From positions 17,007,915 through 17,071,914 of the forward strand of contig CAIIXF020000001.1 of NCBI GenBank assembly GCA_903813345.2: a stretch of 64,000 nucleotides of DNA, read 5' to 3'. Position numbers and translations under genes: made by a program. This DNA is from Owenia fusiformis. Its lineage: Eukaryota > Annelida > Polychaeta > Sabellida > Oweniidae. The stretch's first letter is position 1, and each line of letters starts with the position of its first letter. A model generated the notes under the pieces. It worked only from the letters and a program-made list of their open reading frames with translations. It ran no database searches and was not told where the DNA came from. Shown here one piece after another: positions 16,493-64,000 of this stretch.

Positions 16493-17615
16493 GTTTGGGT
16501 AGGTGAGGGTTGTTTTCTTTTTATTTTGATTCAAGCATGAACATAATTGTATTGAGCAATCGGGTTTATCTGTCACTACCGAAAATGGGTGTTTGTGATG
16601 CCCCTTTGTAGTGTATTACTACTTTATGATGTCATCTGCAGGGTTCAATAAAAACATCGTCTGATTAATAGATATTACATTTTCCAGATTTTGATTAACA
16701 CTTACTAATTGTTTGTGTCGTTTCATGTGTTTTTGTACCACATGCCTAGCTATTTTGAAAGGTCGTCCAACGGTAGACAGATCTGACAGTGCTCCCCTAA
16801 ACAGTCTAGAATATTGCACAAACAATTTTTTCATCCTTTAGCTTGATTCTTGGCACACGTATTCCAACAATGTTACCATGGTTACTAAAGTAAACCTCCA
16901 AAAACTATCAAATCAATAATAGGAATTGATTTAAACTCGTCTAAACTCACAATGTCATACTGACTCATACTATACTGGTGACCAATTTAGTCACACATGT
17001 TTATTTTTGTACACAATAATTGCATTCGGTTCAGTAACAATGCTTTTTATTTTCCAAATTCATTAAACTGTTTGAGGTGACGTAAAAATCAATAGGCTAT
17101 AGAAAATGAAACCACGGAATGAAAATTGACAAATACATTCAGATAACTGAAATGGGATGAGAATGACAATAATATAACTAATAAGAGCCAGGAAATTGGG
17201 ACATGAATATAATTATTGTGATAATTCTGATTTCGTATTAGTTCTGATTTATTTTAAGAGCTTTTAGTCAAAGAAGATAATGACTACATACCTGTGAAAG
17301 GATGGGGAGCAATTAGATACACTATTACAATGATTAATTTATAGCGATATGGAAAGTATTTACAGTAAGAGGAAAGTCATCATGAGATTATATCAGTTGA
17401 AAGGTAAAACTTAGTAAGGTATTCTCTCCTTAGAGGGAACTCAAAGATATATTAAAGTTGGAATCAGAAGTTGTCAGAGAGATGACATAGCATACTGATG
17501 TAACAGATTACATAGCGATCCACTGTCACATACATGTAGCATTCTTTGGTCACATACATAACCTGAGACGTAACATAGCTTACATAAATATATATATGGG
17601 AGTAACCAACCAATC

Positions 17616-17810
17616 TAGCCCGTAGCCAGGGGGGGGGGGGGGGTTGGGGGGTTCGGGTGAACCTTTCAAAATCTTTCAAAATCATGCAGTTTTTCACCAT
17701 TCTGACTATTTTTTGAGTGTTTATTTTTGGCCAAATTTGCCAAAGTGAACCCCCTAGATTTTTTGGGAAAAGTGAACCCCCCCCCTTGGAAAATTCTGGC
17801 TACGGGCCTG
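17616..17810. mobile_element. MITE, GCCCGTAGCCAGG family, copy 1
   Basis: The termini are GCCCGTAGCCAGG (17618) and CTGGCTACGGGCCTG (ending 17810), with long G and C runs just inside and a GTGAACCCCCC block. CAAT occurs directly outside both ends, consistent with a 4-5 bp target-site duplication. A second copy lies at 36065-36250. Confidence 0.8.
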
Positions 17811-18128
17811 CAATGATACCATTTCAAATAAAGTATCTCAAAACTGCAAAAATTCAAAATATGCAATATGATTGTGTCAGGGTATCCAACCACCTCGCCT
17901 GTTATTTCTTTATAACAACTACTACCAGCCAGTTTCTATGTTGTCTACTCCCTTTTTAAAGTCAGGGAAAATTGTATTGGAGTTGGACAGACTAAATGCA
18001 CATCCCAACTTTGAAAATCTGAAAATCTGATCATATTTGTCTTGTAAACAGATATACATTGATCCTTTCATAAGATACCATAATTTGAGATAAATTCTGT
18101 TTTTTAATTCGCATATGTTTTATTTCAG

Positions 18129-19598
18129 CTTACTTGATTTACCTAACGCCCCTTGTTTTGTCGATGGTGTTGCTTTTCCACGTAGCTGGAATATTTCAGA
18201 TAAACATGCAGCGTCAGTTCAATCTAAAGCTTAGTGTTCCGGACTCTATGGACCATAAACTGAGAGCGCTAGAAGCAACGCGTATAAGAAAGGACATTAA
18301 CAACGTCTCTAATAATAATATCACCTCTAGGGATATTATCATGTTGCATTGGACACAATTTCACGGAAGGCCATATCCGATGAGACATAATGAAGATTTA
18401 CAGACTTGTTTTTACAAGAATTGCAAAATTGTGAGTGATAAGAGCCTATTCAACCAAAGTGATGTAGTTATATTTCACGTCCAGGATCTACCCGAGCTGT
18501 TAAAGCACAAGCACCCTCTACCCACATACCATCCCCCGCATCAGAAGTGGCTCCTGATGACCCAAGAACCGAAAACTCGTTCTGGGACTAGATTACCCCT
18601 GTTTAAATACCATTTAGATGGTCAAATAAACATAACCTCGAGTTATAGTTATGACGACGATATAACTATTCCATACGGTTGGACCGAACCCCTTCCCCGT
18701 CCAAACCAAACAGTCATAACACAGAAGATAATGGAAACTCGGACAATGTTAAAGCAGAAGAGGAAACTGATGGTTCAGCTGGTGAGCCACTGCAACACGT
18801 TCAGCCAGAGAGAGGACATGGTGAATGATATGAAGAAATACGTTAACGTGGACGTTTACGGGAAATGTGGGAGACCTTGTCGTGATGACGACCGTTGCTT
18901 AGAAGATTTAGGTATGTATACATATGCAAGATGGTCACTGATCCAAGGGGTTAAATATTGACAAAACAAAAAAACACACAGGGCAGTTTAGGACCATTAA
19001 AACCACGCTTAGGTAGCAACACAATAGAATGAACCGTGTTTTATTTTTGGCCATTATTTTTTCCAATCCCCAAGACTCATTGTTTATAATAATGATAAGC
19101 AATAATAAACAAATTATTCGCAATTTTGTCTTTCTAGGTCGTGTTTACAAATTCTACCTAGCGTTTGAAAATTCCGACTGTAAAGACTACATTACCGAGA
19201 AGGTGTGGGAGAACGCTTTCAAAAACAACATGGTTCCAGTTATCTTTGGCGAGATGACAGATTTCAAACGACTATTACCACCAAACTCCTACATAAATAT
19301 TAACACGTTTAGCTCATTCAAGGAACTCTCTGAATATCTTAACATGTTGGATCAAAACAACGACAAATATGAAAAATATTTTGAATGGAAATGGACAAAT
19401 AACATTCGTTTAAGAACGAAGTCATTAACACTATGTATGATATGTGATTACGTCAATCGTAACTTAGGTGTAAATCAAATTGCTAATTTGGACCACTGGT
19501 TTGATGTCTATCAACATTGCAAGGTATCCGATATTTCTGGACACAAAAACTGGACATTGACTTATCTACAGAATCACGATCATCCGTTTTCATCATGA
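18129..19598 (+). CDS. Alpha-1,3-fucosyltransferase, GT10 family (5' exon missing)
   Basis: Two exons are read: 18129-18911 and 19138-19598, joined through a GT-AG intron in phase 1. The product is a type II Golgi enzyme that transfers L-fucose from GDP-fucose to GlcNAc in alpha-1,3 linkage. A hydrophobic anchor (YLTPLVLSMVLLFHVAGIF) opens the first exon. A lumenal stem with several N-glycosylation sequons follows, then the donor-binding catalytic core with FYLAFENSDCKDYITEKVW, the hallmark GT10 motif, followed by NAFKNNMVPVIFG. The stop is TGA at 19596. The frame is open from a splice acceptor at 18127-18128 and the anchor begins before the first ATG (18164). An upstream exon with the cytoplasmic tail and true start codon is therefore likely; if 18164 is used, the protein has 402 residues. 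The acceptor subtype cannot be told from sequence. Confidence 0.92.
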
Positions 19599-20093
19599 TT
19601 CTATTACACAAGTTAAGGCTAGTATTTAGGTCATTTAGTCATTTACTTTGGATGCACCTCTTCTTACCTTAGCGTTATCAGACCAATCGTCCGTAAAGCA
19701 GTGGAATATATTGAAATTATTAGGTTTGCATGTGGTTTCTCTTGAAGGCCAATGGTTTGAATAGTAGATACCTCAATCACATTTGATCTACCGTCGTAGC
19801 TTCCCAAAATTGAGGAAAATATGCTGCATAAAATATAAGGATATGCAGTACGATATTTTCTATATCGATTTTGTGAAGCTATGGCCGCCGTTCGGTCGTC
19901 GTAGAGCAAATGTAACCGAGGCGTCTAGTATATAGAAATCTGTCCATCCAATCCGTTCCTTGTTCGGACGACAACGTGAATGGAGATTTAAACACGATGT
20001 TCATTGACTTCTTGCATTCATTTGCATTGTGTTTTTAATTGAAACGGTAATGGTCAAGCTTTGTATCTCATATGCGCTGGACAGTATCAGGCG

Positions 20094-20537
20094 AAGGTAA
20101 CGGCCGTTACCGTCGCATTTAAGTAGATGGCGGACGGTAATTGTCAATTTCGATATTTTTAGTTTTCATCGACGTAAAATGCTTTGATATTTAAACTAAA
20201 TCAACCTTGTGCGACATGAAAACTCTGGAGTATGATAAATTATTCATAAATCGTGCGTGGGCCCCAGACTTCAACGATTTCTGTCATTCACACTGTCATT
20301 TGTATAAACAAAATCCCAATCACCTTCCCTTCAGTGGTGGAAGATATAACTGTGGTACCTACGTATGGTTTATGAACAAATTATCATACTCCAGAGTTTC
20401 CATGTCACATTAGCCTGATCTAGTTCAAATATCAAACTATACCAACTATAAATGAGTTTAATTCGATGAAAACTAAACATATCGAAATCGACACTTTCCG
20501 TCCGCCATCTTTAATGCGAAGGTAACGGCCGTTACTT
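20094..20537. mobile_element. Palindromic MITE, GGTAACGGCCGTTAC family
   Basis: Long imperfect inverted arms bracket the copy. GAAGGTAACGGCCGTTACCG and GATGGCGGACGG on the left match the right arm reversed, and AACTCTGGAGTATGATAA continues the pairing inward. Arms are about 150 bp each, so almost the whole 444 bp can fold into a hairpin. No coding sequence is present. Confidence 0.85.
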
Positions 20538-21082
20538 GATCATGAACTGACCAGTGATGTGTTTCTAAGTTCAAAATAATGGCTACTTCTGTATTATAAT
20601 AATCATATCATAGTCAATACATTTTACAATTTGAAACGAATACTATCACTTTAAGATGCTAAAAGTAGTGTTTGCTTTAGCAATGCCATTGATTACTATT
20701 TTAAAAGGATTATTTCAAACGTATCAAGTTATTTACAGAATGAATTCTGTTTTGAAGTTGTCATACTAGTTATAACATTACACAGCCAATCCGCAACGGC
20801 ACCATGTCACAGTGCTGTTTCAACTACGATACCATACAGCACAATTTGATATATACCGTGCATACTCGGGCATCGTACTGGTACCTAATTTCAGAGTCCA
20901 GATTGGGAATGTAACATGAAAAAACGTCACGAAAAGTGTAAGTTCGAAAACACCAAGTCGTTGTTTGAGTGGCCCAGTGCCTATATTTCTATTATATTTT
21001 TTAAGATTCATAACAGCAGATGCAATTTGCAACCTCAGTAGAATCCGATACAAACATTATTGTCTTTAAATACTAGTATCAC

Positions 21083-21595
21083 TGTTCCACAACTAATTAC
21101 TTTGACGGAACGTCAATGTAACAAAATGGATGATCTTCCTGGATTCGAGTATTTTGTATTCTCGATTTAAACTTACGTATAAGTCATGTTGCGGATTATT
21201 ATTTGGCACAAAGTTAGACAACAAAGTCTAGCTTTTAGAAATGCTCTCGATTTGGAATTTGGTTTTTCAATAAAGCTGTAATTCATGCATTTAGACCATC
21301 GCCTTTGTTACATTGACTTTATTCGTCAAAGTAACATACATTGGTAATATAACAAACTTTCGTCAATGTAACAAAAGCGATGTGCTAAATATATGAATTG
21401 CAACTTCATTTGGAAAACAAATTCCAAATCGAAGAAACTTATTAAAACTAAACTATATTTTCTAGCTTTGCGACAAATTACAATCTGCAGCTTGATTTAT
21501 AAGTAGGTTTAAATCGAGAATAAAAAAACTTGTAACCAGGAAGTTCATCCATTTTGTAACATTGACGTTCCGTCAAAGTAACTAGTTGTGAAACA
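21083..21595. mobile_element. Palindromic MITE, TTACTTTGACGGAACGTCAA family
   Basis: The left arm TTACTTTGACGGAACGTCAA, followed by ACAAAATGGATGA, is matched in inverse by TCATCCATTTTGTAACATTG and ACGTTCCGTCAAAGTAA on the right. Inner pairs (AAATCGAGAATA and CTCGATTTAAAC) and a central TTACATTGACTTTATTCGTC block continue the symmetry. The element is about 513 bp and non-coding. Confidence 0.85.
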
Positions 21596-22038
21596 TTGAA
21601 TATTATGATTGAATGAATTTGCTCGCCTTGTAAATTAAGCGGCATAACAATTTTTAGATTTTACAAGAGATTAACAGTCACTAATCATTTTTTCAAAGCG
21701 CAATATTTACAGAAGAAAAGTTTGTATCAAAGTCACTATTGACGAATCAAGTTGTTCATTGTATCTATTTTTACAAAGATTAAGTTTCGATGTGATACGG
21801 GGAGGTGGATCGTATGTCGATAGAGTAAAATCCGAATGAAATATCATCCCAGATTGTTTCGCAAATTCTATCTTGCATGTCACCTTTAGTATAGATTTTT
21901 GTAAAAATAACATGCATTCAGCAATTTAAAACAATATAAATAATTACAAATTATAGATAACGATCTACAATCAATAGCCAGTCTCATATTTACATAAGCC
22001 AATCAGCGGCTTTGGAGTCCACCATCGATCTTTTCCCT

Positions 22039-23909
22039 TTATTTGATATTAATTTCATTGGGGACCTCGTTCTGTGGAATCATATTAAGGGATGGCTCGA
22101 AGTCTTGTTCGAAGTTGTGCATCTCTGAGACTTTTCTTGCGAGGCTCACACTGTGCAATTCGGGGCATTTCTTGACCCACATGGGGGGAATAGAGAGTCC
22201 AACTGCTACGTTAAACAGGCAAAGCTGATTCGCACACGTCATCAGATTGTCGGACTGGAGGAACAATAGAAAAGAAGATATTAAATCATTTTTATTTTCA
22301 ATTTTTAAGGTTACCGAACATTTCCTCGAGTTCATGAAATTAAAAAGTTTCTGCGCAGTGAATTTTTGGATTTGCTTGATTTGTATCTTAAAATTGCGCA
22401 AATATATTCAATTTGCTACACTCCCTTCAAAAGTTTGGCAACCCTAGCTCCTATTTGATATCATATCAAATCCTGATTACTTTTTCTCAATTACATCAGG
22501 TCGGAAATTGATGATGCTATTGACGAATTTTCTAAATCACCGAACACAAACAGGCTTAAAAATGCAGTCCGCTAAGGGTAGTCGGTTTACCAAACTTTTG
22601 GAGGGGGTGTTAATGTCTATATTATGCGAGTCAATATTGGCCTGTGCGTCAATCAAATCTAAACCTAAAAAATGAGCAATCAAACGAGCACAGTACAATA
22701 TCATATAGAAAACCATATTCATATTTTAGGTGGAAACATTTATACAGGGTTTCAATTAAGTCCCCCCCCCTTGCTACAGCTATAAACTTAATAGACGGTA
22801 CCTTGTGTGATATACCATTCGAAAGATCATCCAAAGCTATGTTTACTCACCAACTCTCAAGTTTTTTGGAAGAAATTTACCTATATTTTCATGATGTCCT
22901 TTATAGTTAACGTACCCTCCTTTAAGCAGCCTTTTGCGTCAAAATGACAAGGATATGACCTCAGAAATACGTCAAAAAGTTAATCTTTTCGCATTCCACT
23001 TGTTACAAAAGGGTTTTCACCACTCTCCTTGCACCTCTATTTTCTTCACATCTAACCCTATTCAGAAATTGGTTAAATTCATTGCCAAATACATATTTAG
23101 TCATCTTTTGGTCCTTTGACCTTTCTTATACCCGATTCTTAAAATCCTGCCAAATTGCCATGTTTCAAAGCCAAAGTTTCAAAGTCCCCTCGATAGATAC
23201 ATTGTGAAAAATTGTGAGATTGATTGACATGTGTCAGATATATGCCAATCAACGTAACTTTGGAAGACATTTCCAATGATATATCACACTTGGTACCAAA
23301 TATCTTGGTTTTGGCTATAGAGGGATGGGGACTTATTTGATTCTCTGTATATTTCAGATAAATTACAAAAATAACATGTAGCGTCAAAATATTAGAGGCC
23401 AAACATTTAATTAGCCAAACCACAATCCAAGATATACAAATGTATCTATAAAATATGAATGTGTTCCTCTATATAACACTGTGCTCCTTTGATTGCATAC
23501 TTTTCTGTTTACTGGTAACTGACGCACAGAAAATAAGTTCTATCGGCAACCAATACTTTAACTATTTTACTCCATTTTCTATGATATCAATATATAATTA
23601 TACCCGGCATTTTTAATGTCTTAGTTTAATTTAGAAAGTATTCGAATAATTTTGTTACATTTGTAACATTACTCATACTTATTTTGGGTAATATGATTTA
23701 TATAGCTAATAGCCGATTTAAAAAAAATCAAAAAATTAATTTTAAGTTTTACTCACCGAAAGATTTTGGCATGTGTAACAGGCCAACAAACATGTATCTA
23801 CGGGATCCATGAACTGTTTATAATGATAGAGCTCTTCTCCCAAAGATTTTCCGTTTCCAAGACCAACAACCATCATTAATATCTGACCAACAATTGTCCA
23901 CTTATTCAT
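22039..23909 (-). CDS. Small secreted six-cysteine protein (possible eclosion-hormone-type peptide precursor), two exons
   Basis: Exon 1 is 23909 down to 23757 (51 codons, phase 0, donor GTGAGT). Exon 2 is 22254 down to 22039 (acceptor CCTCCAG, TAA stop). The joined product is 122 residues. The N-terminus (MNKWTIVGQILMMVVGLG) is a good signal peptide and there is no other hydrophobic segment, so the protein should be secreted. Six cysteines follow with spacing C-x3-C-x2-C-x10-C-x4-C-x17-C, ending at VKKCPEL. A hydrophilic, Asn/Glu-rich tail follows and includes an RK pair that could be cleaved. The CLLACYTC spacing and the GLSIP stretch before the last Cys loosely recall eclosion-hormone-type neuropeptides, but the later spacing is longer. 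The family is not established. The 1.5-kb intron contains a 609-bp TIR element. A TATATATG-like sequence lies about 100 bases upstream of the ATG, near 24005. Confidence 0.65.
22742..23350. mobile_element. TIR element, ATACAGGGTTTCAATTAAGT family
   Basis: ATACAGGGTTTCAATTAAGT at 22742 is matched by ACTTATTTGATTCTCTGTAT ending at 23350. CCCC runs lie just inside the left end. It sits inside the single intron of the minus-strand six-cysteine gene. Short open frames inside show no recognised domain. Confidence 0.65.
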
Positions 23910-24710
23910 GTTGGAAGCTGTGTAGATGTTTTTTGGTAAGCGTTGATGAGCTACGATTGATGGTTCTCTGTATCACTTTTTAGGTCCTCGAATACTGCGA
24001 CATATATGCGTCTCTAGCTTCTTGTCACTGGGACAGAGTGTCGTAGTAACTTGTGGTTGCTTGTCGGCTGTATCATCTTTAGATCATCTAACATCTTCAT
24101 TTATAGGAGCTTGATGTGTTGATGGTGTAAATTAATGACGCATTTTGTTACTGAGTGACACAATAATATAGAAATATGAAATGCCCTGGGGCAATGATTA
24201 TGGAATAAGCTCTTTGTTAGTGCCGGTCACTATGGCGTCTTATTTTACCACGCACAGGAATTCAATATATTCGATTCGAACATGACTGTATTCACGCCTT
24301 CTATAAACTGTAAACAAAATTTCACCCGGGATATATTCGCGATCAATACCCCTGGTAATACGTGTAATGTGTGATGTCATAACGGTGGGTCGTAGAAATG
24401 GCGGACTATTATGAATATTCGAAACATTTCGGCGAGTTTTCATGTTCGAAGCGTAATATAGTCCCTCACTCCCTTCAATCGTTCAGGGTACATAAAATGT
24501 TTGTGCCTAGCCCTGCGGGGTGTATTCGATAATATTACCCCTGCTCTTCGGTCTATATTTCCTAATCAATTGTAACAGACCTATAAAATAATTAAAATCA
24601 TTTTCGACCCATGTCTAATCCAGATCTACTCCAAGGGGTAAAATTAGGAAATCAATCATGCACAACGGTATATGATTATGATGTCTAAACTTTGTGGTTA
24701 TGATGATCCC

Positions 24711-24860
24711 AACGAACGAAGTTCGATAGGGATAAAGTGAAGCCTTCCGTCCGTCAGTACGGTCCGTCCGTCCGCACGCCCATCAGGAAGATAACTCAAA
24801 TACTAGTGTACAGATTCTCTTCATATTTGCAACTCCACCGGGTAGCAGAGTTCAGACTGT
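24711..24860. repeat. CGTCCGTCCG-bearing dispersed repeat
   Basis: ATCCCAACGAACGAAGTTCG leads into CCGTCCGTCAGTACGG and a further GTCC tetramer run, then GGAAGATAACTCAAATACTA. This looks like one end of a dispersed transposon rather than simple sequence alone. No matching second end was found. Confidence 0.4.
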
Positions 24861-25904
24861 CATTTGTTGGATTTTGGCCATTTTCTCGGGATCAAAACAG
24901 GTGCATATGTTAGGCCAATGCATTATCTCCAGGAAAAGCAATCATAGAGATGATATAAAATAATTTTGACTTTGAGACAGGGAAGATGCAAACAACCCAT
25001 CCACATGTTTTTTCTGAAATGTTGTCCTGATTTTCAACCTCTTCCACCCCTGTTTTTCCAATTTTTGTTGCATCAATATTCAACAAAGAATTTTGATATT
25101 GCATCAAGGAGTTTCTATATAGCTTTGAAATCTCGCTAATTCTCGTGAAGAGATTTGCAAATTACACCTCCAATGACCTACTTTTCCAAGCATATTTGAA
25201 TTCAGTGAACAGTGAAACATTTTCTACAATAATAACTTTGATTTAGGTGTAGTTATCATCACTTTTCATCTCTTTTCAACTTAGTCTAGAAAAGTGTGGG
25301 CCTAATCTCCATTGATGCAATGTCAAAATTCTTTTAAACCTTGGTTTATTCGTTCGACAAGATTTTCATGATTTATCACAATATGTACATTAACAGGGTC
25401 ACCCCATAGTATGGCATTCGAGTTTTAAACAGATTCAACCAACTATTTTTGATAAATGATGAAATAAAGTGACTTTTAACATTGAAGCCTATGGCAGTCT
25501 GGCCCAGCCTGAACAAATACAAACAAGTGGTGACATCTATTTATTCAGCTATATAGCTACTCCCTTATTGGAAGTGTCAAGTAACAAAAAGGTTATTGAA
25601 GTTATTATTTTTCAAAAGAATAATTCCGCCATTTTACCTGTATATTAACCTTTATATGTGACCTTGGCCTGTTATTGTCAGATTCACCTTCAACGTCCAG
25701 TATCGTTAGCTGTACTATTCATTATGCTATTGACCTTTTACGAAACCTTACTTAAAATGAAACATCAAAGACCACAACAGTGAAATAGCATTTTCGAGCA
25801 GTTTGCAAACCAGGATGCGTCAACCATATGATTCAAAAGGTTTCAGATGCCCCAACTTGTGTTCTTAGTTAACCGCCTTTAAAATCGAAGATGGTATGCG
25901 TCAC

Positions 25905-26040
25905 CGAATTTGTCTTTTGTGACACCAGCACAAATGGTGACATCCAACTTTTTGTGAATGGTGTTCGGCACACGAGGGTTGTTGTTCGGCGTTCTGGGTC
26001 AAATGGCAGGTGGTGACATTTTGCATGTTAATGGCATGTT
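25905..26040 (+). repeat. Dispersed repeat, GTTCGGCG / GTGACATTTTGCATG family, copy 2
   Basis: The block carries ATGGTGACATCCAACTTTTT, then GTTCGGCG repeats, then GGTGGTGACATTTTGCATGT. The same motifs occur near 950-1000 and, reversed, near 59955-60045. Confidence 0.6.
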
Positions 26041-27107
26041 TTTCTCTTAAACCAATTATTGAAAACATTGTGTAAAAATACACGGTCCTTTATGTAATGT
26101 TGACTGATTGACAACACTTTAATACATTTTTTAATATATATTCTATAATTGTTTTTGTTTTTTAGTGCCATTGTTTTTTGTTCCTTTCTACCAATTCTTG
26201 AGAATGAAATAAAATGTCTTTCTGAGCCTTGTTGGAATTTAAATAGCATATACAGCCTTTTCGTAGACCTCTCAATATTATAGTTATTTGGAAATATATA
26301 GTTAAAAGGAAAATTTGGTCAGATTTAACAAAAAGTATTCAAAAAATTATAACAAAACCCCCAAAATAGATAAAAATTAAGATAAACCTTTTATTTCATT
26401 AACAAGATACTTTCAAAAAATCAACTTTCCTTTGTACAATTACAATATTGAGAGACCTAAACTCGTTGTTTATGTCGTTTTGTTCCAATGAGCTTCGGAG
26501 AGATGTTTCATTTTATTAGGAACATTATGATACCAAGAACAGAAGAAGTGTCTGATGTGTTTTCTAAAACAATATAGAGATAAGTATATATATATACATT
26601 TCAAATTATATTGTTACCATATATTCAAAAGATGACCATTAAATTGCCGGATGTGAAAATTTTTCAGAATCTTTTGATGAATGGTTTAATAAAGTTCATC
26701 ATATTGATACCAATCCTTTCGTCTTGATCTTATTGATGGAGCAAGATGGAGTCTAATTACTTAAAAATGTTATTCTACTTCTGATTTTTCATACCCGTCC
26801 CTAGATCCGAATTATACATTCTTGTGAAGCTAAAACAAATTTTTCATTAATATTTTGACATCACACAATTCATCTGGGTTATAACTGAGCACCCATGGAG
26901 GTATTGCTCCTATGCTATAACATTGGATTGTGTTGTATAATACAGATGTAAGAAACACATCATTAATATTAACAGAATCATTGAAAATGACACTCTTATC
27001 CATTCTAGGTCCGAGGATGTTTCAATTCCTTGCGTAGCTGCTATAGCAATGAAGCCCAATCTTGAAGACTGTTCTTATTAAAACGGAAATATTTTGCAAG
27101 GGTAAAG

Positions 27108-30995: not shown

Positions 30996-33180
30996 ACCCA
31001 GCAAACAGTGACGTCCATGTAACGTCACTCATATGTGGTATATAAGTTCACTGGAGACGTTGTATATTTCCGTTATATAAACGTCAAAGCAACGTAAAAT
31101 TGTGACATTCAGCAAAACGTCGGTGGATGGTTAAAAAATGACGTTGTAGTAATGTGTTAGTAAAGTTCGAAATTTGTGCTGGTGTGAAAAACGTAACAAT
31201 GACGTTGAATTTTTACCAGTTTGGTTCATTTGCAACGTAATATAAACGGTAAAATTTAACGTTGTCGTAACGTTTTTTAAATGTGTAAAATATTTGTAAG
31301 TGCAGGAAACATTACAAAGACGTTGCAGTTCTCACCAAATTGTTTCATTTGCTACGTAATATAAACGGTAAAATTTGACGTTGTCGTAACGTGTTTTAAA
31401 TGTGAAAGATATTTGTAAGTGTAGAAAACGTTACAAAGACGTTGTGTTCTCACCAAATTTGGTACATTTGCTACGTAATGTAAACGGTAAAATTTGACGT
31501 TGTCGTAACGTGTTTTAAACGTGAAAGATATTTGTAAGTGTAGACAACGTTACAAAGACGTTGCACTTCTCACCAAATTGTTTCATTTGCTACGTAATAT
31601 AAACGGTAAAATTTGACGTTGTCGTAACGTGTTTTAAATGTGAAAGATATTTGTAAGTGTAGAAAACGTTACAAAGACGTTGTGTTCTCACCAAATTTGG
31701 TACATTTGCTACGTAATGTAAACGGTAAAATTTGACGTTTCGTAACGTGTTTTAAACGTGAAAGATATTTGTAAGTGTAGAAAACGTTACAAAGACGTTG
31801 CACTTCTCACCAAATTGTTTCATTTGCTACGTAATATAAACGGTAAAATTTAACGTTGTCGTAACGTTTTTTAAATGTGTAAAATATTTGTAAGTGCAGG
31901 AAACATTACAAAGACGTTGCAGTTCTCACCAAATTGTTTCATTTGCTACGTAATATAAACGGTAAAATTTGACGTTGTCGTAACGTGTTTTAAATGTGAA
32001 AGATATTTGTAAGTGTAGAAAACGTTACAAAGACGTTGTGTTCTCACCAAATTTGGTACATTTGCTACGTAATGTAAACGGTAAAATTTGACGTTGTCGT
32101 AACGTGTTTTAAACGTGAAAGATATTTGTAAGTGTAGAAAACGTTACAAAGACGTTGCACTTCTCACCAAATTGTTTCATTTGCTACGTAATATAAACGG
32201 TAAAATTTGATGTTGTCGTAACGTGTTCTAAATGTGAAAGATATTTGTAAGTGTAAAAAACGTTACAAAGACGTTGTGTTCTCACCAAATTTGGTACATT
32301 TGCTACGTAATGTAAACGGTAAAATTTGACGTTGTCGTAACGTGTTTTAAATGTGAAAGATATTTGTAAGTGTAGAAAACGTTACAAAGACGTTGCACTT
32401 CTCACCAAATTGTTTCATTTGCTACGTAATATAAACGGTAAAATTTGATGTCGTCGTAACGTGTTCTAAATGTGAAAGATATTTGTAAGTGTAAAAAACG
32501 TTACAAAGACGTTGCGTTGTCACCAAATTTGGTACATTTGCTACGTAATGTAAACGGTAAAATTTGACGTTGTCGTAACGTACGTGTTTTAAATGTGAAA
32601 GATATTTGTAAGTGTAGAAAACGTTACAAAGACGTTGCAGTTCTCACCAAATTGTTACATTTGCTACGTAATATAAACAGTAAAATTTGACGTTGTCGTA
32701 ACGTGTTTTAAATGTGAAAGATAATTGTAAGTCTAGGAAACGTTACAAAGTCCTTGTTTTCCCACCAAATTGGTTAATTTGCCACGTAGTGAAAATGGCT
32801 AATTGTAACGTTGTCAAAACATGGTTTGAATGTGAAAAATATTTGTAATTGTAAAACACGTTACAAAGACGTCATTTTCTGACCAAAATGGTTCATTTTC
32901 AACGTAGTGCAAACGGTTAATTTCAACGTTGTCGAAACGTGTTTTCAATTGAAATGTAAAAAAATATTTGTAAGTGCAGGAAACGTTACAAAAAGACGCT
33001 ATGTCCTCACGAAATTGGTTTATTTGCAACGTTGTCGAAACAGTTAATTTTGACGTTGACGAAACGAGGTTTAAACGTGAAAAATACATATACATGTATG
33101 TGAAAAAGAACGTGACAAAGACGTTGTGGTCTCAACAAATTCGTTTAATTTGTGACGTGAAGTAAATGTTAAATATATAA
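30996..33180. repeat. Left satellite array, about 119-bp unit, alternating A/B dimers
   Basis: CTCACCAAATT recurs at 31331, 31449, 31569, 31687, 31806, 31925, 32043, 32163, 32281 and 32401, with diverged copies before and after. Spacings mostly alternate between about 118 and 120 bp. Two monomer types alternate: one with TTTGGTACATTTGCTACG and TAATGTAAAC, the other with TTGTTTCATTTGCTACG and TAATATAAAC. The higher-order period is therefore about 238 bp. Each monomer contains AACGTTACAAAGACGTTG and GACGTTGTCGTAACGT. Units after about 32760 are increasingly degenerate. No coding sequence is present. Confidence 0.95.
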
Positions 33181-39399: not shown

Positions 39400-42275
39400 A
39401 ACATCGGTGTCTACATCTTCCTGTACAGGAACTTTAAATTATGTTCATGTAATGATTCATTTAACTGGACGTTAGTCATTACTATCACTATATCTTGTTG
39501 ATGGCATAATTAAGGTTACTAGAACATTCCTTGCATGTGTTGTCCTAACTTGATGTAACCAGAAGTTATGAATTTGCCATGTATGTGACAAGCACGTTAC
39601 AGTCTCTTTATTTTGGCAAAGTCGTTGTTAAGGTTGGTACTACATTCCTGGCTCGTGATATCTAAGTCGAACGTAACTTGTATACTCATTTATGCTTGTC
39701 CACACTTTCCTTTGCCTACAACGTTCTATAGTTAATGTTACCAGAACTTTAACTTGGCCACGTATATGTGACGTTGCATTAGCACGTCACAGTCTGTTAT
39801 TTTATTTTTGCAGTCATTGTTAAGGTTGCTACTACATTCCTAGCACATGATATTTAAGTAAAATGTAACGTTGTATAAACATCTGTGCGAGTCCAGACCT
39901 TCCTGTGCCTACATCGGTCCAAGACAAACGTTACCAGAACTTTAAACTGGCCAGGTATATGTTACGTTGCATAAGCACATTACAGTTTCACTATTTTTGC
40001 GAAATCATTGTTAAGGTTGGTTCTACATTCCTGGCACGTAATATTTAAGTCAAATGTAACGTTCTTTAAACATCTGTGCGAGTCCACACCTTCCTGTACC
40101 TACAACGTTCCATAATTAACGTACCAGAACTTAAAACTGGCCACGTATATGTGACGTTGCAGAAGCACATTACAGTCTCGTTATTTTTGCGAAGTTATCG
40201 TTTAGGTTGGTTCTACGTTCCTGGCACGTGATATTTAAGTCAAATGTAACGTTCTTTGAACATCTGTGCGAGTCCACAACTTCCTGTACCTACAACGTTC
40301 CATAATTAACGTATCAGAAATTTAGATTGGCCACGTATTTATGACGTAATGTAAGTACGTTACATTTTCGTTATTTTGGCGAAGTCATCGTTTAGGTTGG
40401 TTCCACGTTCCTGGCACGTGATATTTAAGTCAAATATAACGTTCTTTAAACATCTGTGCGAGTCCACACCTTCCTGTACCTACAACGTTCCATATTAACG
40501 TTACCAGAAATTTAGATTGGCCACGTATATATGACGTAATGTAAGTACGTTACATTTTCGTTATTTTGGTGACGTAATTGTTAAGGTCGCTACTACGTTC
40601 CTGACACGTGATATTTAAGTCAAATGTAACGTTCTTTAAACATCTATGCGAGTCCACACCTTCCTGTACCTACAACGTTCCATATCAACGTTACCAGAAA
40701 TTTAGATTGGCCACGTATATATGACGTAATGTAAGTACGTTACATTTTCGTTATTTTGGTGACGTAATTGTTAAGGTCGCTACTACGTTCCTGACACGTG
40801 ATATTTAAGTCAAAAGTAACGTTCTTTAAACATCTATGCGAGTCCACACCTTCCTGTACCTACAACGTTCCATATCAACGTTACCAGAAATTTAGATTGG
40901 CCACGTATATATGACGTAATGTAAGTACGTTACAGTTTCGTTATTTTGGCAACATAATTGTTAAGGTCGCTACTACGTTCCTGACACGTGATATTTAAGT
41001 CAAATGTAACGTTCTTTAAACATCTGTGCGAGTCCACAACTTCCTGTACCTACAACGTTCCATATCAACGTTACCAGAAATTTAGATTGGCCACGTATTT
41101 ATGACGTAATGTAAGTACGTTACATTTTCGTTATTTTGGCGAAGTCATCGTTTAGGTTGGTTCTACGCTCCTGGCACGTGATATTTAAGTCAAATGTAAC
41201 GTTCTTTAAACATCTGTGCGAGTCCACACCTTCCTGTACCTACAACGTTCCATATCAATGTTACCAGAAATTTAGATTGGCCACGTATTTATGACGTAAT
41301 GTAAGTACGTTACATTTTCGTTATTTTGGTGACGTTATTGTTAAGGTCGCTACTACGTTCCTGACACGTGATATTTAAGTCAAATGTAACGTTCTTTAAA
41401 CATCTATGCGAGTCCACACCTTCCTGTACCTACAACGTTCCATATCAACGTTACCAGAAATTTAGATTGGCCACGTATATATGACGTAATGTAAGTACGT
41501 TACAGTTTCGTTATTTTGGCAACGTTATTGTTAAGGTCGCTACTACGTTCCTGACACGTGATATTTAAGTCAAATGTAACGTTCTTTAAACATCTGTGCG
41601 AGTCCACACCTTCCTGTACCTACAACGTTCCATTTCAACGTTACCAGAAATTTAGATTGGCCACGTATTTATGACGTAATGTAAGTACGTTACTTTTTCG
41701 TTATTTTGGTGACGTAATTGTTAAGGTCGCTACTACGTTCCTGACACGTGATATTTAAGTCAAATGTAACGTTCTTTAAACATCTATGCGAGTCCACACC
41801 TTCCTGTACCTACAACGTTCCATATCAACGTTACCAGAAATTTAGATTGGCCACGTATATATGACGTAATGTAAGTACGTTACAGTTTCGTTATTTTGGC
41901 GACGTAATTGTTAAGGTCGCTACTACGTTCCTGACACGTGATATTTAAGTCAAATGTAACGTTCTTTAAACATCTGTGCGAGTCCACACCTTCCTGTACC
42001 TACAACGTTCCATATCAACGTTACCAGAAATTTAGATTGGCCACGTATATATGACGTAATGTAAGTACGTTACAGTTTCCTTATTTTGGCGACGTAATTG
42101 TTAAGGTCGCTACTACGTTCCTGACACGTGATATTTAAGTCAAATGTAACGTTCTTTAAACATCTGTGCGAGTCCACACCTTCCTGTACCTACAACGTTC
42201 CATATTTAACGTTGCTACAACTTGAGACATATATTCTGACGACGTTATCACAACGTAAAATTGTTAGCTGGGTAC
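39400..42275. repeat. Right satellite array, 190-bp unit
   Basis: CATCTGTGCG or CATCTATGCG recurs exactly every 190 bp at 40071, 40261, 40451, 40641, 40831, 41021, 41211, 41401, 41591, 41781, 41971 and 42161. More degenerate copies reach back to about 39400. Each unit carries GTAACGTTCTTTAAACATC, ACAACGTTCCATATCAACGT, ATGACGTAATGTAAGTACGT and GACACGTGATATTTAAG. The E-box CACGTG and a CRE-like TGACGTAA are therefore present once per unit. Copies are nearly identical at the right and decay to the left. No obvious homology to the left-array monomer exists beyond the shared ACGT richness. Confidence 0.95.
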
Positions 42276-46437: not shown

Positions 46438-47484
46438 GTGAGTGACAATAGCAGGGATAAAGGCTTTTTATAAAGTCGTTAGTTCCATTCTTGTAGAGTG
46501 TAGCCTGTGAAAAATGAAGGATTAATAGCGTTGCTCTTTTGTAGGAATACAAATAATACAGAAATAAAAAATCGTTCACTTTGAAAATATAATTTGGACA
46601 GCACTGTCACAGATGACCCTTGTAAATATGATACTCATAGATAAATCACAAGACCGACTGTCAATTTCAATTTTAGAATCTTTCTGGTTTTATTATACTC
46701 CATTTAAAGCTCGGCAGGATGAAAAGTCAATCTTTATTCCGAATTAATTGTAATTCTGACACTCATCACGTCTCGTTCTTACCGTGGACCTGGACATGGG
46801 ATTCAAAAAGTAGAGAATACAATATTGGTAATGAATGAGTCAATGATTTCGGTGTTATTTTTTATACTAAACATTAATCTGTTTCCAAAAATTCGATGGA
46901 TGTTTTTTCGAACGGAGGTTTTTAAAATTTCATGATATCAGTTCAAGATGTGTACCTCATGGTTAGGAGGATATCGTTTTTATCCAGTTGTCAGAGTGAA
47001 ATGAACGATACAGTATATATAAGAAAATAGAGGTTATTTAATAGGAAGATGTCTTTATAGAGAGACACAATATAAGATTTCCCAAAGAGATCAAGCATAA
47101 TATCATATTATGGAGGTATAAATTCCATAATCTCAGATCATGATATTCACTACAAGGAATATTAGACATCCCGTTTATATTATCTCTGTTATTACATAAA
47201 ACATCTTAATCAATAAAACAATTTTTTAAATGTCGAAACTAAAAATGATTATTTTTACCCGAAAAATAAATTTGAGAAAAAACTATTTTGCATATACTTT
47301 ATATATTATTTTGTATATACCTGGATGAAATGGTGAATGCGAATCTTTGAAAAATATTCATTTCGGGAAGAAATTGTATCATAATAGGATACAACTTAAA
47401 ATTAAAGACAGTATTATGGCAATTTTACAGTTTGTGATCAACAGTATGTTGAACAGTTTAAATTTTGCGATCGCATTACAGGAT

Positions 47485-50400
47485 ATGACAGACAGACTTA
47501 CTCAAAAATCTACAAACACCACTCAAGCTTCAACATCTAACATTAAGATGGGAAAGATGTCAAGCAAACGACTTCTTCGGACCCCGAAATGCGCACGCTG
47601 TCGGAATCACGGTGTGGTGTCGTGTCTAAAAGGCCACAAGCGTCATTGCCGATGGAAAGACTGTCAGTGCACCAATTGTCTGTTGGTGGTTGAGCGACAG
47701 AGAGTTATGGCTGCACAGGTGTCCCTTCGCAGGTATGGCTTTGCATATTATATCATTATTATTGTTGTTTCGTACAACATATATCTGACAATTCAGCAGT
47801 AATATTACATACATTTAATACACTATTCGTACAGTTTGATATCCTTTTGGATATATAAAGCATTTAATTACAATAGTAGTTTGTTATGAAATAATGCATT
47901 CAGAAAATTAGACATCTAGTCCATTTCTAAGTTGTTATGATCGAAGTAAACGGATGTCCTGTTGAATGTGATATTCCAATATTGCCTACGATGTATCAAA
48001 CGTGGGTGGTTCTTCATTTACATCATTAACATGTTCAGTAAATGGTGTCAGTTCAACTTCATGATTTGTTCACGGAATGTTTCTCGCGTTGTGCCACACT
48101 GTAATTTCTTGTTTACCACTGCCTCCAAACAGCAGCAACTAATTTTTCATCATCATGTGGAATGTTCGGACAGCCGTCATACTTCATATGGGTGGGATAA
48201 AGCTCAACCACAATATGGGATAATTTTCATATCCAACATGGCATCTTGTCACTTTGTCACGTTGTAGCAAACTGTGAGCGTTATGATTGGTATCTGTTTT
48301 GACATCACTTGAACCACAAAATAATCTGACACTTGGCTTTTCTAGATAACAGTAGCAATGGTTTGAAAAAGATACAGTTTTGACGCTTTTTTGACGCTTT
48401 AAAAAAAAAAGTTTGTCTGTTTTTCCGTGAGCATTACAACACCTCAAAGTCTAGACAGTAATTTGTAATTTGTTTTTACGCACGCATTGTTAAATTACTG
48501 ACGCATGCATTACATCACCGTAAAGCGGAATAATAAAGGAATACTATTCAATTAATAAGAAAACATAATTGCTGCCTGGACCCTAACATGTCACCCAGGC
48601 TCATGGTTTTTTACTTTCACTTTGTCTTTCAGGTTTAAAATTATGATATTAAATATGAGGCTAGGAGGTTGTTTTTTTATTTTATTTTTTCATGAATTAT
48701 AATCTTAAAATATGAGTCTAGGAGGCATTCTATTTTAAATATCTATTTATTAAAAATATGCCGAGGAGGTGCCGTATGTGGCATTGTGGATCGGTATCTG
48801 CATTCCTTCTCAGGGAACAATATGTTTGTTCAAATTATTGTTATTTAATCAAATGTATTTCCTATAGCATCTTGTTGTGATCCTACTGGTTGCACACGTT
48901 GATATATACCAACTTCTGCTTTAACAACAATCAATCCGAAATCTCATATTGCCGTAAAGGAACAATAACATTGGTCACTTGTTTGAACATTTTTTCCCAC
49001 TAAAAAGTAAATTTTTGAAGACATTTTGTGAGCCCCAAAAGTTATAACCTGCATTTTTGTATCAAGAATCATAATTTGTTAATTACAATGTATATATTCA
49101 AACACAATAGAAGGGATTCGTGTGAAATCCTAATTTCACATTAACAGAATGGAAATATCTATTTTTCTGTCATACCTTGAAAATCGAACCATTATAAGTC
49201 CGAACTGTTGTACTTTTTAGAAAATAGGCATGGAGTGAATTGATGAGAACAACAAGTAATTGAAAAAGTTGTGACATTTTTTTTAAACTTTCAACTCTTC
49301 TATCCCTCATTCTCTCATATCTGTAGCTTGTACATGTAGTCATATTTTCAATTTCAGACAGCAATCAACTGAGACGACTCCCCAAGACCAATCAACTGCC
49401 CGAGCGAAAGTAAAGAACGCGGCCGCCATTCTGCAACAGAGAAAGGCCCTGCAACGGAACTTGCGCAACCTTCAGCAACACACCCTCTCCCGACAAATAC
49501 TCCAAAGTAAGAACATAAATAGACTACGAGCGTATATCATATAGTAACATGTATTGCATTAATAAGCACTTACATAACATTGTTGAAATATTATATTATG
49601 GAAAAACTGGCACAGACAATATTGCAAATTAAGTACTGCATATCTATACTCTTTAGATAGTCATGATTATGTGTATTCATATGAAGATATTTTAGATGCT
49701 CTAGATATCATCTGAGCATATCAATAAAGAAATAACTTAGGGCCACCGATTCTATTTCCACACGTATCCATTTTAAGATTTCAATCTCTACAAATTTTGA
49801 TTTTGCACAATTGGCAACATTTAAAACTAAACAAAACAAACTTGATACCAAATCAGTGATAATTCAAATGGCCGCGTTGAATGTGTATATTTTTGTGCCA
49901 ATTGATATTTAACTGCTCTTTCATTACATTTTCACTATTTGTATTTATGATGTCTATTTCCTAACAAATCAAAAATGAATCTTATTGAAAAAACTTCATA
50001 AAGTCCAACGAATTTCCCCGACTTGTACTTTTATCAAGCACTTTTGAACCACAGGAAGAAGAGTTGTTTCATATTGTTGGATGTCAAAGAATGAAGAGGA
50101 TGTTTTAATTAGCAATAATTTGTCTTTATAGACTACCAGACAAGACTGCACACACTTCCGCCCCCAGAGGCACTGCGATCCGTGCTTCCTATAATCAGCG
50201 AGAGGATGCGCAAACGACGGGCATTCGCGGACAAGGACGTAGAGAAGGCAATGATGGAACGAGAAAGACAAACTATGATAACCGATAAAAAGTCGTCTGC
50301 ACCGTCCCAGGATTCCCAGTTGTATCCAATCGTGTCGACGCTTAAAGCAATGCGATCGCGTCAAAACGAGATGGTTGGAGCGCCCAAGGAGTTTTTACAC

Positions 50401-50925
50401 AAACTGTTCCCCACACATAATCCTAATGTACTGGAGCTAGTTTGGCAGGGATGTGGGGGCGATATGGAGAAAGCGATCGAACAGATTGTTTCCACCACGC
50501 GCCAAGCAGCTGGGCAATCAAGCGTGAATATGGGAAGGCAAGGGATGCCTTATACATGCCCAAATATGGCAATTAAGCTCCAATATCAAACGTTACACAA
50601 GAAAGACACCAATAAAACTGCATTCGACTCCCCCACACATCCAGCCTTTGGCGGCCTACCTTTACATTTAGTCTACCGCCAATACGAACTCTACATGGCG
50701 CAAATGGCAGCGTCTGTCACAGCACGTGCACGCGGCATGGCCCAAACTCAACCAATACCTACAGAACTATCTAGTCCAAAACAATCACTAGCAGCTAAAG
50801 ATATTTTATCAGAGAAATCTGCTTTCAAATCAGTTACAAAAGGACACACTTCAGATGGGAAATCACCGAAGACAAAATCCAATCCATCCATCTCCTTTTC
50901 AGTGGATTCTATCATGAACTCATGA
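47485..50925 (+). CDS. DMRT2: DM-domain transcription factor, DMRT2-type with DMA domain
   Basis: Coding exons are 47485-47732, 49358-49506 and 50132-50925, with GT-AG introns and matching phases, giving 396 residues. Residues 33-86 are a DM domain with all zinc ligands ([20 protein letters not shown], then DCQCTNC, then the [16 protein letters not shown] recognition tail). The [10 protein letters not shown] and [12 protein letters not shown] wording is that of DMRT2. Residues 155-176 ([14 protein letters not shown]) match a second DMRT2 hallmark. Residues 216-253 ([20 protein letters not shown] then [16 protein letters not shown]) form a DMA domain, normally seen in DMRTA and DMRT3 proteins. 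DM proteins bind DNA in the minor groove; DMRT2 members act in somite, muscle or sex-related programmes in other animals. The start at 47485 follows a splice acceptor; the frame stays open to an ATG at 47347, so an unspliced start adding 46 residues is possible. Confidence 0.9.
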
Positions 50926-53405: not shown

Positions 53406-63828
<10,423 letters not shown>

Positions 63829-64000
63829 TTTCGGGTACACAAAATTCACAAACACTTCATTAATTTAACTTCATTTAATTCGCACTTCCATATGTTATAT
63901 ATGATGGGCTATTGACTCTTAAATCCACATAAAATATGCCGTTTTTGTCCCCGAAGTTTTTTTAGACCAGGAAGTGTTTTTGGTCAATCAAAAATGGCGG
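63829..64000 (-). promoter_or_regulatory. 5' UTR / promoter-proximal region of the Src-type kinase gene
   Basis: This lies directly upstream of the kinase start codon. An in-frame ATG 27 bases upstream (63855) would add nine residues and hide the myristoylation Gly, so it is unlikely to be the main start. At the window edge AAAAATGGCGG (63990-64000) resembles a YY1-type core-promoter motif. The transcription start cannot be placed. Confidence 0.35.

Follow-up and report, generated by a model that had tools for sequence, protein, structure and literature searches.

Analysis of a 64,000-nucleotide stretch of DNA (the window) points to a two-exon gene on the minus strand, situated between the fucosyltransferase and DMRT-type genes of the window, which would encode a small, secreted six-cysteine protein. 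For a claim made from sequence the gene model (two exons, secreted product, six cysteines) is well supported and the gene is probably real, while the similarity of its product to the eclosion hormone (EH), the trigger of moulting in insects, is suggestive. The features of the gene are the following:

23757..23909, minus strand: coding part of exon 1 (51 residues), with the ATG, a signal-peptide-like start, an N-terminal stretch and cysteines 1–3
22255..23756, minus strand: intron, phase 0, 1502 bp, GTGAGT...CCTCCAG, with nested inverted repeats inside (transposon-like)
22039..22254, minus strand: coding part of exon 2 (71 residues), with cysteines 4–6, an RK pair, a cysteine-free tail and the stop TAA
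24098..24105, minus strand: TATA-box-like TATAAATG upstream of exon 1, a tentative promoter (motif match only)
22038..22043, minus strand: AATAAA hexamer resembling a polyadenylation signal and overlapping the stop codon, tentative (motif match only)

Joined in phase 0 the two exons give 122 residues, and the coordinates, the reading frame and the splice motifs (donor GTGAGT, acceptor CCTCCAG) all agree with those proposed in the initial annotation. Neither exon contains an internal stop or a frame break and both splice sites are intact. Scored with approximate splice matrices, both sites rank high, the donor (TCG/GTGAGT) among the best 0.57% of 7240 GT sites and the acceptor (CCTCCAG) among the best 0.40% of 6232 AG sites. 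In the 10 kb that follow the donor in the 3' direction, phase-0 frames of 25 aa or longer begin behind three acceptors scoring 3 bits or more (71, 27 and 29 aa), and the one at 22254 has the best score of the three and is the sole one to open more than 30 aa. Upstream of exon 1 the frame of the ATG is closed by a stop codon, with 21 codons between the two and no further ATG there. The TATAAA motif, starting at 24105 and thereby ~200 bases upstream of the ATG, and the AATAAA motif are compatible with a gene but are weak signs of one.

The cysteines are located at residues 40, 44, 47, 58, 63 and 81, three on each side of the exon junction, and the translation of the joined exons reproduces the spacing reported earlier, C-x3-C-x2-C-x10-C-x4-C-x17-C. 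A hydrophobic stretch at the N-terminus is followed by cleavage sites compatible with the -3,-1 rule, for example after Gly20, and the proposed signal peptide (residues 1–20) is in agreement with this, as a rule-of-thumb reading based on hydrophobicity and the -3,-1 residues only. Dibasic pairs occur at residues 91–92 (RK) and, just before the last cysteine, at residues 79–80 (KK), and the tail of 41 residues after cysteine 6 is free of cysteines.

How readily such a model arises by chance was addressed with a search demanding a hydrophobic start, at least three cysteines per exon and splice thresholds 2.5 bits below the observed sites, criteria that were chosen post hoc with the candidate already in view. 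This search gave one model in the real window, the candidate itself, and none in 60 windows simulated with an order-3 Markov model. When the splice thresholds were relaxed and the cysteine rule was eased (two or more in exon 1 and 6–10 in total), 5 of 40 simulated windows held at least one model, and with loose thresholds the number rose to 32 of 40, with a mean of 1.5 models per window; the real window gave a single model in both cases. Since simulated windows yield models once the thresholds are loosened, the case for the gene hangs on how strong the splice sites are. A codon-usage score, derived from just 989 codons of the fucosyltransferase, DM/DMA and SH3 frames of the window, in which some non-coding ends may be included, suggests that exon 2 looks coding-like and that exon 1 is neutral; among stop-free control stretches of equal length, which overlapped in both cases, 2.0% of 254 equalled the score of exon 2 and 43% of 921 that of exon 1.

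The similarity to EH was studied using three insect references (Drosophila, Manduca and Bombyx) which, as a positive control, matched the Pfam Eclosion family (PF04736) with E values of 3.5e-35 to 6.4e-33. Neither the whole candidate protein nor its cysteine core matched any Pfam family, Eclosion included, in searches with E up to 10, where the HMMER filters drop most matches above ~0.1. As the EH controls are recognised and the candidate goes unreported, the Eclosion model works yet does not reach the candidate.

When comparing the sequences directly, the candidate was found to have D-x4-C-x3-C-x2-C, a fourth cysteine followed by A, and G-x2-I-P ahead of the sixth in common with all three insect EHs. 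In a MAFFT alignment of the mature candidate, D15, C20, C24, C27, C38, A39, G50, I53, P54, C61 and S66 are identical in the three EHs, as are P85, L87 and N88, although the latter are aligned across a long gap, and the fifth cysteines are out of register by one; the mature candidate is 33, 27 and 25% identical to the three EHs. As to the last loops, described in the initial annotation as too long to fit EH closely, the later spacing is 10, 4, 17 in the candidate versus 12, 3, 10 in the insect references.

Several tests of this similarity were made, and the result for Drosophila EH is the best among them: of 2000 full shuffles 0.05%, and of 2000 cysteine-fixed ones 0.65%, attained its local alignment score. 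For Manduca EH 1.3% of the full and 10.5% of 2000 cysteine-fixed shuffles were as good, and for Bombyx EH 9.4% and 41% (the latter again of 2000). An HMM built from the three EHs gave the candidate 5.4 bits, a score equalled by 121 of 2000 cysteine-fixed shuffles; of 2000 full shuffles 1927 received a score, which in 12 cases was as high. hhalign returned a probability of 4%, with results as good in 45/300 cysteine-fixed and 7/300 full shuffles. Scores anchored on the cysteines were matched by 11 of 3000 shuffles for Drosophila, 697 of 3000 for Manduca and 432 of 3000 for Bombyx; for the mean of the three EHs the count was 112/3000, or 110/3000 when shuffling was done within the loops. The similarity is thus borderline, suggestive at most, and is owed chiefly to a single reference, Drosophila. 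Of the resemblance to EH noted initially, the C-x3-C-x2-C block and the G-x2-I-P stretch stand as traits common to insect EHs, whereas the shuffle statistics leave it borderline; the comparisons with EH profiles, proposed at the same time, speak against it, with Pfam Eclosion unreported, a low hhalign probability and the cysteine-fixed shuffle counts given above for the HMM and hhalign. The candidate is not classed as an EH here, its later cysteine spacing departing from that of the arthropod hormones and Pfam recognition, by which these are defined, being lacking.

Searches for homologues were carried out in viral, bacterial/archaeal and phage collections, which are little informative on animals. 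The candidate protein had no homologue in viral contigs, where an alignment of the candidate together with EH gave 44 pattern-matching stretches of which none was confirmed, and no homologue in phage records. Four pattern-matching stretches were found in bacterial and archaeal genomes and one of them (L001, in a metagenome-assembled genome of Enterobacterales) passed tblastn; it was rejected as a chance match, with an internal stop and situated, in a different frame, where a 604-aa reading frame begins that, judged by eye, looks like an aspartyl-tRNA synthetase. Among solved structures each search with the candidate gave one unrelated match (E about 0.7) and the EH profile gave only one, also unrelated (E 0.88). 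No Rfam family was found at gathering thresholds within positions 17000–27000 of the window, and, at E up to 0.01, no Pfam family in exon 2 read unspliced, in one frame of the intron or in four further frames of the window. When the 64-kb window was searched for a second copy with tblastn, only the two exons and five matches with E from 0.18 to 7, taken as noise, were recovered.

Compared with known systems, insect EH (PF04736) resembles the candidate in being secreted, in having six cysteines in a short domain and in the D-x4 preceding C-x3-C-x2-C, and differs from it in that the candidate has loops of 10, 4 and 17, a 41-residue tail after cysteine 6 and no report by Pfam Eclosion. Arthropod ITP/CHH are, like the predicted product, secreted hormones of ~70 residues with six cysteines; their first loop, of about 15 residues, would not fit C-x3-C-x2-C. 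Some relatedness of ITP/CHH to EH is noted in a passage of an oyster survey (PMC8398477), and two shrimp EHs are described as having the same cysteine spacing, 3, 2, 12, 3, 10 (PMC11641175). Outside arthropods, EH-type peptides are described together with receptor guanylyl cyclases in echinoderms (PMC5627052), and peptides of this type keeping the six cysteines, again along with such cyclases, in lophotrochozoans, namely molluscs, annelids, nemerteans and phoronids (PMC6660194); a confirmed match would therefore make the candidate a divergent member of a known family. In the descriptions given, EH-type precursors of lophotrochozoans and echinoderms are short like the candidate, have a signal peptide and contain six-cysteine peptides (PMC8398477, PMC5627052, PMC4772807). 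The oyster precursor of Cragi-EH1/2, with transcripts chiefly in female gonad, mantle and digestive gland, is described as containing two EH units that are 24% identical to each other and have six cysteines in common (PMC8398477), in contrast to the single six-cysteine domain and C-terminal tail of the candidate. The starfish precursors Arnp11 and Arnp15a/b, with six-cysteine peptides of 47–57 residues, are described as carrying an N-terminal spacer with a dibasic site (PMC4772807) where the candidate has its tail at the C-terminus. Among the matches listed in the literature no EH intron position was found that could serve for a test of homology. The whitnin/PKYMDT precursor was considered as a relative on account of a loose likeness to HYKQFMD and was rejected, being described as a 114-residue precursor of short peptides, one of which, ERYM, has two cysteines, with no six-cysteine domain (PMC3434067).

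A real and divergent EH-type gene is the explanation we put foremost, tentatively and at somewhat less than an even chance. The two-exon gene would then give rise to a small peptide prohormone which the signal peptide (about residues 1–20) would direct into the secretory pathway; the six cysteines (residues 40–81) would form three disulphides in a compact peptide of ~70 residues, and the cysteine-free tail might be freed at the RK pair (residues 91–92). As a best guess from the published biology of EH, the peptide might act on a receptor guanylyl cyclase. The main rival accepts the gene and its secreted six-cysteine product and takes the latter to be something else, an unnamed lineage-specific hormone, an antimicrobial peptide or other, with C-x3-C-x2-C acquired by convergence. 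Cysteine-rich secreted peptides restricted to molluscs or to oyster are indeed described in the oyster survey (PMC8398477), and this rival is favoured by the candidate having no Pfam family, no relative among solved structures, later loops unlike those of EH and a similarity to EH coming mainly from a single reference. Against it stand D-x4-C, C-A and G-x2-I-P, which are common with EH besides the cysteines, and we hold this rival to be a serious possibility that falls short of an even chance. That the product represents a new six-cysteine peptide hormone family or a long-loop sub-branch of EH, peculiar to this animal lineage, with a mature peptide of ~70 residues cut from the tail at RK, seems rather unlikely.

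The lesser rival is that there is no gene, the two open frames being unrelated and their joining through splice-like motifs fortuitous. A repeat-rich intron, an exon 1 of neutral codon score and the comparable models obtained from simulated windows under the looser and loosest thresholds speak for such a joining. Against it are a coding-like exon 2 behind the only good acceptor nearby, the even split of the cysteines, three per exon, and the lack of any model in the 60 windows simulated under strict thresholds; we regard it as improbable. Much less probable again is a decayed gene copy, or a model lacking a further exon, a reading that draws on the transposon-like repeats of the intron and on the AATAAA over the stop codon, with which the 3' UTR would be very short, and that is opposed by intact splice sites and exons free of stops and frame breaks.

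When analysing the intron, inverted repeats with TATACAGGG-like ends were identified at 22741–23351 (31 nt long with 81% complementarity, separated by 549 nt), nested in larger inverted-repeat arms at 22642–23529 that are 72–79% complementary; the inner element is presumably a degenerate non-autonomous element of mariner type within an older repeat. Elsewhere in the window tandem arrays are located at 31188–33086 (119 bp, 15.9 copies, 87% matches), at 39590–42213 (190 bp, 13.8 copies, 92% matches) and at 53695–53947 (20-bp unit, 12.6 copies, also scored at a period of 121 bp). The fucosyltransferase (GT10) gene is found on the plus strand in frames 18089–18961 and 19017–19598, between which its C-terminal domain is split, and the DMRTA-type gene, also on the plus strand, is spread over two frames ~2.3 kb apart (47329–47802 and 50119–50925), one with a DM domain and the other with a DMA motif. 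A frame containing SH3 at 63409–63864 on the minus strand starts with MGNCLRK and, from the MGNC start and the SH3 match, we take its N-terminus to be like that of a Src-family kinase. By its gene content the window is animal nuclear DNA.

EH-type peptides outside arthropods have been identified largely by their cysteines, and a divergent candidate would help to reveal the features that unite the family as well as the role of an ecdysis hormone in animals that do not moult. If not an EH, the product would add to the small secreted peptides that stay unannotated because gene finders overlook them. The gene would at most add a divergent member to a known family or one more family of small secreted peptides.
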